DNA of 64,000 nucleotides from Ignavibacteriales bacterium (GTDB lineage Bacteria; Bacteroidota; Ignavibacteria; Ignavibacteriales; SURF-24), in assembly GCA_026390815.1 (NCBI GenBank), contig JAPLFH010000006.1, positions 186,001-250,000 of the forward strand. The letters run 5' to 3'. This document shows, piece after piece, positions 20,147 to 22,270 of this stretch. Within the stretch, counting starts at the first letter, position 1. Each line of letters opens with the position of its first letter. The notes below the pieces were generated by a model that saw nothing but the letters and a program-made list of their open reading frames with translations, was not told the DNA's origin and made no database searches. A program made the position numbers and the translations under genes.

Positions 20147-22270
20147 CTATTTAATCAAACACATTTTTCTCACTAATCTGGTTTCTCCTGCTTTCAAAAC
20201 ATAAAAATAAATCCCGCTTGATAGATTGCTGCCTCCGACATTGGCGGAAAACTCCACTTCATAATTTCCAGCGGGTTTTTCTTCGTTCAAAAGAGTTGCG
20301 ATTTCGTTACCAAGAATATCAAATACTTTAAGAGTTACCCTCACCTGTCCTTCGGACATCCTCTCCCTTGGGGAGAGGACTGAGGTGAGGGCTGGAATAG
20401 TAAATTTTATATTTGTACTTGGATTAAAAGGATTAGGGTAGTTTTGTTCCAATTTATTTTCATTGAGATTTATATTGGGACTCATCTCTTTTGAAATTGT
20501 AACTTCGAGTTCATTAGAGTAAAAGGCAGTTCCATTGAAATCAGTTTGCCTTAACCGGTATTTATAATTACCAGGCGTAATATTTTTATCATTAAAAAAG
20601 TAATATGCTTTTTCTGTTGATGTTCCTTTACCTTTTACAAAACCTATTTCATTCCAGATTAAAGTGGATGGTGAGTTTCCCTTTTTCTCCACATAAAATC
20701 CCGAATTATTTATTTCTGTTGATGTCTGCCAATTTATATTAACTTCACCGTTATTAAATTCTGCAATAAAAGAACAAAGTTCAACCGGTATAGGCTGCCA
20801 GTACCAGAAAGGTCCTGTACTCATTCTATCAACCGATTTTCTTTGAATTGGAAAGGATGAGTATTCGTCACAACCAACATCTTTATTGTTATCTCTAACT
20901 TGTCCGTCAAAATCATCAGTAATAAAAGGATATGAACCAACTGAAGCATTTATTGCCGGACTTATCGAAGTCAATCTCCATAAAAAATCCGGATAGGATG
21001 ACTGCAATTTGGGATCAATTGAGTCTATTCCAGTAGATGGTTGCATCCCGATCGGACTTCCAAACATAATATTTTTTGTCCAGCTCAGGTTTATAGGTTC
21101 TATCCTGGTTATAATAAAAGGATTCTGCTCGTCAAGGTAACTTCTGTAGATAACATTATTAGCAATGATGCAATCTTTTGGAGGTTGAGGAATAAGAGAT
21201 GGATCCGACAAGTAAGGATTTCCAATATCAAAGTTGAGTTGATTATTTACAAAAGTGTTATGAACTATTTGTACATTCTTTGGTTGAGGAAAACTTCCGG
21301 ACGAGGGAAAAGTGAAATCACCGCTCAGGAGATAAATTGCCGGTTTCTGTTGTAGCGACTCAAAATAGTTATTGTAAATTTTATGGTCTTCGCTCAAAAT
21401 AATTATTCCGCCGGAAATATTATGTTGTCCGAAAAAATAATTACTTTCTACTATTGCTCTTTTCCCCCAGCGCAACGAAATAAATCCCGCACATCTGGTA
21501 AACACATTGTAATGATAAATATTATCATCAGATTTATTTGAAATGATTTCATCTTCTCCGTTACAATCCTCAAAATAATTATATTCGATAATATTATTAT
21601 TGCCATAAGGAGAACCCGCTACACCTACCATAATTATATCTGCTCCGTTAACCAGTACCCCACCAATAATATTCGGGGAACGGTAACCAAAGTAATTAGA
21701 ATCTACTTTATTCCCGAAATCACCTTCGTTTGCATCAATAACCATAAGGTTGCCAAAGTGTCTCTTATTTTTAAAGCAACAGTGATCAATCCTGTTATTG
21801 TTACCCCTTAATACTGCCCAGAAATTGTGAATGGAACTATCCGGAGGATTAAAATTATCAATTGCACAATTGGTTAACCTAAGGTGATTTCCGGTAACCC
21901 AGATTCCATTAATAGTATCCTTTATGCCTACCTCAATTATTTTGTCATAAGGATTGTCAGGAATTATATATCCATCTGTAAAATATAAACCATCTACTGT
22001 TATATACTCGCCGGTAAAAAAGAATTTTGATTGACCTGTAAAGATTGCTCTGCCCGGCGTTTCAGCACGTATAATTATTGGTTTCTGCTCATTCCCCTTT
22101 GCTTTAAAATATATTTTCTGATTTATCCAAAAACCGTTGGATAAAATAATTGTATCGCCTGGCTGAACGCTTTTCATTAACAAATGAATATCTGCAGCGG
22201 ATGATACCCGGTACGTTGAACCTGCTGCTTCTGAAAAAATAATCAATAATAAAAAGAAAATTTTTCTCAT
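20147..22270 (-). CDS. PL6-family polysaccharide lyase with T9SS sorting domain
   Basis: 707 residues with a signal peptide (cleavage near SEAAGS). Residues 20-470 form a right-handed parallel beta-helix of polysaccharide lyase family 6 (alginate lyase/chondroitinase B): RNNNRIDHC-like turns, then GEDEIISNKS with the catalytic Lys (K246) and ISLRWGK with the catalytic Arg (R267). It should cleave uronate-containing polysaccharide (alginate or a glycosaminoglycan) by beta-elimination outside the cell. A fibronectin-like region (about 500-600, INWQTSTEINNSGFYVEKKG) and a T9SS sorting domain follow. The sorting domain is interrupted in frame by 18 residues (ALTSVLSPRERMSEGQVR) encoded by a 54-bp palindromic element. 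Whether that disturbs secretion is unknown. Confidence 0.88.
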   Translation of the reverse strand: MRKIFFLLLIIFSEAAGSTYRVSSAADIHLLMKSVQPGDTIILSNGFWINQKIYFKAKGNEQKPIIIRAETPGRAIFTGQSKFFFTGEYITVDGLYFTDGYIIPDNPYDKIIEVGIKDTINGIWVTGNHLRLTNCAIDNFNPPDSSIHNFWAVLRGNNNRIDHCCFKNKRHFGNLMVIDANEGDFGNKVDSNYFGYRSPNIIGGVLVNGADIIMVGVAGSPYGNNNIIEYNYFEDCNGEDEIISNKSDDNIYHYNVFTRCAGFISLRWGKRAIVESNYFFGQHNISGGIIILSEDHKIYNNYFESLQQKPAIYLLSGDFTFPSSGSFPQPKNVQIVHNTFVNNQLNFDIGNPYLSDPSLIPQPPKDCIIANNVIYRSYLDEQNPFIITRIEPINLSWTKNIMFGSPIGMQPSTGIDSIDPKLQSSYPDFLWRLTSISPAINASVGSYPFITDDFDGQVRDNNKDVGCDEYSSFPIQRKSVDRMSTGPFWYWQPIPVELCSFIAEFNNGEVNINWQTSTEINNSGFYVEKKGNSPSTLIWNEIGFVKGKGTSTEKAYYFFNDKNITPGNYKYRLRQTDFNGTAFYSNELEVTISKEMSPNINLNENKLEQNYPNPFNPSTNIKFTIPALTSVLSPRERMSEGQVRVTLKVFDILGNEIATLLNEEKPAGNYEVEFSANVGGSNLSSGIYFYVLKAGETRLVRKMCLIK
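20338..20391. repeat. 54-bp multi-stem palindromic element inserted in frame
   Basis: Outer arms CCCTCACCT and AGGTGAGGG enclose two smaller stems: GTCC, TTC, GGAC and CCTCTCC around a short loop with GGAGAGG. The whole forms a cloverleaf-like fold. Its length is exactly 18 codons. It interrupts the sorting domain of the PL6 protein between the FTIP and VTLKVFD segments, which are contiguous or separated by 3-8 residues in the neighbouring proteins. Confidence 0.8.

Follow-up and report, generated by a model that had tools for sequence, protein, structure and literature searches.

A protein-coding palindrome in a T9SS sorting domain resembles intrastrand-triplex repeats that flank DUF559 genes

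Repeats of the BoxC/PIT/TM kind have been known since the 1990s, and we know of no enzyme or function that has been assigned to them. DUF559 stands in Pfam as a "protein of unknown function." In Escherichia coli K-12, 23 triplex motifs (TMs) have been described, which are always intergenic and without mobile-element association, and whose loci are prone to rearrangement; the motif was demonstrated to form a triplex in vitro as single-stranded DNA, and in vivo its formation was found to be only minor or temporary (PMC4666352). A DUF559 gene has already been assigned to the EDxHD family (PMC9403480), and VsrA, a DUF559 protein of Caulobacter, belongs to a DNA-damage response tied to cytosine methylation (PMC12907096). 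No paper linking DUF559 to TM/BoxC/PIT repeats was found in the open-access literature searched.

The window, i.e., the whole 64-kb stretch of Ignavibacteriales DNA analyzed here, contains a palindromic element of 54 bp within a gene for a polysaccharide lyase. Its position, arms, and letters were exactly those given in the initial annotation, and the outer arms and two inner stems described there were borne out by sequence, coordinates, and folding (Table 1). The outer arms CCCTCACCT and AGGTGAGGG surround two hairpins, GTCCTTCGGAC and TCCTCTCCC-TTG-GGGAGAGGA (20359-20379). Read on the + strand, positions 20359-20391 are TCCTCTCCC-TTG-GGGAGAGGA-CTG-AGGTGAGGG and constitute a perfect class II intrastrand-triplex motif. 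TMs were defined by a pyrimidine stem, a purine stem, and a mirror purine third strand of 6 to 15 nt each, separated by loops of 1 to 6 nt and with at most one mismatch; the motif found here has 9-nt stems, loops of 3 and 3 nt, and zero mismatches, and it is also multi-copy and dispersed in its own genome. The third strand AGGTGAGGG additionally pairs with the outer arm CCCTCACCT. Moreover, the 5' part (CCCTCACCT plus the hairpin GTCCTTCGGAC) yields a second class II motif on the other strand, with the hairpin as a long loop, and this part is predicted to let the entire element fold as a three-way junction. The RNA fold, proposed at the outset as a check, came out at -34.9 kcal/mol (z -3.7), far more stable than shuffled sequences, and the DNA fold was likewise more stable than shuffles (z -4.3). 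The core hairpin occurred once in the window (expected, 0.01), and the GC content of the insert was 63% versus 33.6% for the window. Judged by its sequence, the insert belongs to the intrastrand-triplex repeats of the TM/BoxC/PIT type, of which it represents a solo copy, with the triplex folding itself predicted.

Table 1. Coordinates of the element, its host gene, and comparable sorting-domain loops (positions in the window, except for the last row, which gives positions in the named loci)
Feature	Position	Strand	Basis
Whole TM (triplex-motif) palindromic element within coding sequence	20338..20391	.	sequence, folding, GC
Outer pyrimidine arm CCCTCACCT; predicted third strand of a - strand class II triplex	20338..20346	+	sequence
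Small hairpin GTCCTTCGGAC	20347..20357	+	folding
Pyrimidine stem A TCCTCTCCC	20359..20367	+	sequence, hairpin search
Loop 1 TTG	20368-20370	+	sequence
Purine stem B GGGAGAGGA	20371..20379	+	sequence, hairpin search
Loop 2 CTG	20380-20382	+	sequence
Third strand AGGTGAGGG; mirror of stem B, T facing one A	20383..20391	+	sequence; motif definition PMC4666352
PL6/chondroitinase-B-like lyase with T9SS sorting domain, 707 aa	20147..22270	-	ORF, Pfam
Por_Secre_tail sorting domain, residues 611-703; insert in loop between first two predicted strands	20162..20440	-	Pfam, paralogue comparison, structural model
Sorting-domain loops with other palindromes	L109 1501-1782; L260 4586-4861; L112 1837-2121; L252 4870-5163		

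The element lies in frame within the 707-aa open reading frame 22270..20147 (-) and codes for ALTSVLSPRERMSEGQVR between FTIP and VTLKVFD. Pfam identified a PL6/chondroitinase-B domain and a Por_Secre_tail in this protein, so that the insertion into a T9SS sorting domain with its frame kept, as initially annotated, was confirmed by both the ORF and the domain search. The annotated gain of 18 residues holds as far as coding is concerned; since the equivalent loop has only 3 to 4 residues in most sorting-domain paralogues, the net gain is ∼14. Similarly, the insert was indeed absent from neighboring sorting domains, namely from six further ones in the window. In the structural model, the beta sandwich remained intact (pLDDT about 90), and the insert appeared as a low-confidence loop between the first two strands. 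An effect on export of the lyase, which the initial annotation had considered, is unsupported: the structure prediction leaves the sandwich intact, and several other genes of Ignavibacteria have TM-type or other palindromic inserts at this loop. In the lyase, the extra loop residues are most likely near-neutral. The proposed dating by alignment of orthologs yielded no date: no close PL6 orthologue was found, and matches to the catalytic domain did not exceed about 36-49% identity.

This sorting-domain loop has been struck by inserts repeatedly. TM-type inserts were present in the equivalent loop of other Ignavibacteria (L083, L104, and L115), and the element in L083 was near-identical to that of the window but ran the other way with respect to its host gene. 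L104 and L115 may be biased toward similar inserts, because they were retrieved with the window protein as the query. At least two other palindrome families were also inserted in the sorting-domain loop of Ignavibacteria. When sorting domains were sampled without selection for inserts, long loops were seen in 8 of 23 (genome G035), 1 of 8 (G043), and 1 of 12 (own genome), the last being the window lyase itself. As a side observation, palindromes of the forms GTCACCCTGAGC..GAAGGGT and GTCATTGCGAG..GCAATCTC were noted in frame in this same loop of T9SS sorting domains. A pairing of the GTCACCCTGAGC.. and GTCATTGCGAGG.. palindrome families with GIY-YIG nucleases was considered and left unsupported (2/30 and 1/30 loci, respectively). 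Separately, small GIY-YIG genes were encountered in regularly spaced tandem arrays, each of five near-identical copies, at G048:C1:120132-122135 and G035:C1:2945594-2947066.

Copies of the element were found throughout its own genome (4.52 Mb in 59 contigs), where 14 core hairpins were detected at up to 2 mismatches versus 0 in a reversed control, and a TM scan of part of the genome recovered at least 16 TMs. The search thus bore out a dispersed family, and the possibility raised initially, that no other copy might exist, fails because the element family is multi-copy. In-frame TM copies resided in the lyase, HsdR, HsdM, and MetH genes; in one restriction-modification (R-M) operon, HsdR contained four in-frame hairpins and HsdM a single one. 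An exact 24-nt stretch of the window element recurred in 55 loci of several phyla, including Alphaproteobacteria, Candidatus Moranbacteria, Gastranaerophilales, Planctomycetota, Elusimicrobia, and Bacteroidetes. Nine of these loci had the stretch deep within long ORFs, and the host ORFs scanned included PriA, DnaX, CarB, UvrB, and a U32 peptidase. Among 164 genomes of the own order, the GTCCTTCGGAC type was rare (2 genomes) and a stricter TM pattern was patchy (13 genomes); a search of viral contigs with a 30-nt piece of the element gave no match. One TM-like hairpin, at L016 (G000:C46:151084), had a further hairpin, CCTGCCTGGCCGACAGGCAGG, interposed between its stem and its third strand, as at the right end of L140, so that two repeat families were nested.

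The TMs in the HsdR gene of the own genome bracket an extra domain, which Pfam identified as DUF559 (PF04480). Each of the four DUF559 genes in the own genome was flanked by TM-like palindromes, and two of these genes lay in frame within HsdR and MetH. DUF559 was present in 109 of 160 genomes of the own order. With the TM scanner, a TM was detected within 160 bp in 51 of 59 DUF559 loci, and on both sides in 38; this locus sample consisted of top-scoring matches, about half of them from genomes picked for having the element. For comparison, TMs occurred in 4 of 528 distant windows of the same 59 loci, in shuffled sequence at 3 matches per 505 kb and 1 per 482 kb, and in 1 of 30 GIY-YIG loci of the own order. 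Most of the DUF559 loci missed by the scanner had visible palindromes of the same kind. In the flanking units, the sequence of the small hairpin varies (GCCCGAAGGGC and GTCCGGTACTCCGGAC, versus GTCCTTCGGAC in the 54-bp element) with its pairing retained. TM-flanked DUF559 genes were also seen in annotated isolates (Sphingomonas, S. meliloti, Synechocystis, and Deinococcus), and in Hyphomicrobiaceae the subfamily of the window element lay ∼100 bp from a DUF559 gene. DUF559 and repeats of this architecture are thus associated in several phyla.

Around the exact 24-nt element, DUF559 was nearby in only 1 of the 55 loci, with up to 8 kb examined per locus, and because of this most copies are taken to be solo and trans-mobilization is assumed. 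TMs can also persist without DUF559, since E. coli K-12 has 23 TMs and the Pfam control search of an E. coli control genome revealed no DUF559. From both observations, solo copies may be relics or may have been moved in trans. Two further observations were made at the DUF559 loci. Across L139-L201, third strands pointed outward in gene-embedded units (12 of the 14 unambiguous ones) and inward in free-standing units (11/11). At L141 of the own genome (2300-3328), an ORF starting MKTILGLDLGTNSIGWALIEKAG appears to resemble a Cas9 N terminus; it lies ∼360 bp downstream of a repeat-flanked DUF559 gene.

For an analysis of covariation, hairpins near DUF559 were gathered without requiring a third strand (n=111). 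A perfect 8-nt mirror of the own stem was present nearby in 84 of them. After permutation of the stems among loci, mirror matches averaged 15.9 of 111 and never exceeded 23, and a direct-repeat match was found in only 10 hairpins. In a unit with different stems at its two ends, each end retained its own mirror third strand. Changes in a stem are thus matched, in mirror image, by its own third strand. Such covariation is what a local triplex predicts; alternatively, it may reflect another kind of local recognition of mirror symmetry.

The fold of DUF559 matched 3HRL, a DUF559 protein (Z 16.3), I-Bth0305I (Z 11.7), and Vsr (Z 9.9), and residues E52, D54, H58, and D67 were invariant, as expected of an EDxHD/Vsr enzyme. 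DUF559 was found embedded in MetH, HsdR, Mod, PriA, UvrA, HydF, a GHMP kinase, a radical SAM protein, and a zinc carboxypeptidase, and complete TM-DUF559-TM units were in frame within MetH, HsdR, PriA, UvrA, and HydF. Both allelic states were seen in MetH: the linker comprised 16-17 aa when empty and 154-202 aa when filled, and filled linkers had TM-coded peptides at the insert ends. Most relatives had an empty MetH site and some a filled one, with filled ORFs scattered across the 160 genomes; within the own family, G000 and G163 were filled and G160-G162 carried a short ORF. In-frame insertion with empty and filled MetH alleles is thus directly observed. A DUF559 tree grouped the sequences by host site (MetH, 16/17, support 0.996; HsdR, 7/7, support 0.915). 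Pfam scans of proteins with embedded DUF559 revealed no intein domain, 8 loci gave no Rfam match, intron RNA included, and no target-site signature of the insertions was resolved. In one HsdR gene (L160, 175-3315), GIY-YIG and DUF559 domains were both inserted in frame.

Several other explanations of these observations have to be considered. The TMs could be selected regulatory or structural sites, such as terminators or instability hot spots, between which DUF559 settled by chance; this would agree with the rearrangement-prone TM loci of E. coli (PMC4666352), and DUF559 units could prefer to land at such sites. However, the TMs of MetH occurred only together with DUF559 and were absent from the empty alleles read, and therefore arrived with the insert, and the differing stems of a single unit each keep a matching mirror third strand, which makes selected sites a rather unlikely explanation. 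DUF559 might instead act, like Vsr, as a nuclease of repair or immunity, with the TMs as independent repeats accumulating nearby, but this seems quite unlikely as well: although Caulobacter VsrA acts in a methylation-linked DNA-damage response (PMC12907096) and several DUF559 units lie within R-M genes (HsdR and Mod), the two-sided flanking with nearly fixed spacing, the insertions in MetH, PriA, UvrA, and HydF, and the site-tied lineages fit a selfish element better.

The presence of six Y1_Tnp genes in the own genome and the documented intragenic, in-frame REPs (PMC3733652, PMC6006769) would favor an ordinary REP-type repeat, moved by a RAYT/Y1 (HuH) transposase, that landed in the lyase gene by chance. 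Yet no TM abutted any of the six Y1_Tnp genes, and the nearest TM with a third strand was ∼540 bp away (L080), while L079 had a bare hairpin at ∼630 bp, in contrast to the DUF559 genes with their 51 flanked loci out of 59. RAYT as the mobilizer was rejected for this absent adjacency, no GT[AG]G foot flanked the 54-bp element in its sequence, and such an origin is very unlikely. Finally, the 18 residues could represent a conserved functional loop of the sorting domain, with the palindrome a coincidence of codon use, as the intact frame and a similar peptide in a few other sorting domains might suggest. Against this stand the short loop of most paralogues, loop inserts from unrelated palindrome families, the TM type in both orientations, and identical DNA in other genes and phyla; moreover, no vertical orthologues all carrying the loop were found, and we give this explanation almost no weight.

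Most probably, the insert represents one end, copied on its own, of a DUF559-driven mobile element with triplex-type ends. In such a mechanism, single-stranded ends, on the lagging strand or during repair, would fold into a triplex or cloverleaf, DUF559 would recognize the folded end and nick it, and repair or replication would then copy the end, or the entire unit, into a new site. In-frame landings in tolerant surface loops would persist as extra residues, because the ends have few stop codons, and the lyase insert would be a solo end of this kind. The TM-DUF559 association suggests an unrecognized kind of jumping element able to enter genes without breaking the reading frame. We lean, if only slightly, toward the broader proposal that DUF559 and triplex-forming ends make up a distinct, phylum-spanning mobile element, with a triplex-recognizing nuclease and non-splicing, in-frame insertion into essential genes, which would be the source of BoxC/PIT/TM repeats, including protein-coding solo copies. 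Linking these repeats with DUF559 gives each a testable role, and the covariation speaks for maintenance of the triplex architecture as such. It would also offer an apparently non-splicing, in-frame way for a nuclease gene to reside in housekeeping genes, and strings of residues seen in annotated proteins, for example LSPRER..EGQVR or PLGEGRGG, would be explained as mobile-element scars.

Among known systems, the Rickettsia palindromic elements (RPE), to which the insert had initially been likened, share with it the dispersed palindrome that codes for protein in diverse genes; that part of the likeness stands, whereas the predicted structure, of the intrastrand-triplex kind, and the endonuclease-linked context appear to set the 54-bp element apart. 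REP/RAYT systems (REPtrons; PMC3733652, PMC6006769) likewise combine an enzyme gene having palindromic ends with solo copies and occasional in-frame loop insertion, but DUF559 is a Vsr/EDxHD nuclease and not a HuH tyrosine transposase, and its units end in triplex motifs that lack a GT[AG]G foot. With EDxHD homing endonucleases (I-Bth0305I) and Vsr, the DUF559 units share the fold and the EDxHD residues, and with homing endonucleases also the site-tied lineages and the patchy empty and filled alleles. In contrast, the DUF559 inserts scanned showed neither an intein nor an intron domain; they remain open in frame in their host proteins, apparently without splicing, and are bounded by triplex-type repeats. 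The closest counterparts of the 54-bp element are the TM/BoxC/PIT repeats (Holder et al. 2015, PMC4666352), which share its three-tract class II architecture, its multi-copy nature, and its occurrence in many taxa, and whose sequence, CCCTCNCCC-loop-GGGNGAGGG-N3-GGGNGAGGG, is nearly identical. In contrast to the TMs as described there, those reported here also occur in frame within genes, possess additional outer arms as well as hairpin loops, and lie on either side of a gene for an endonuclease.
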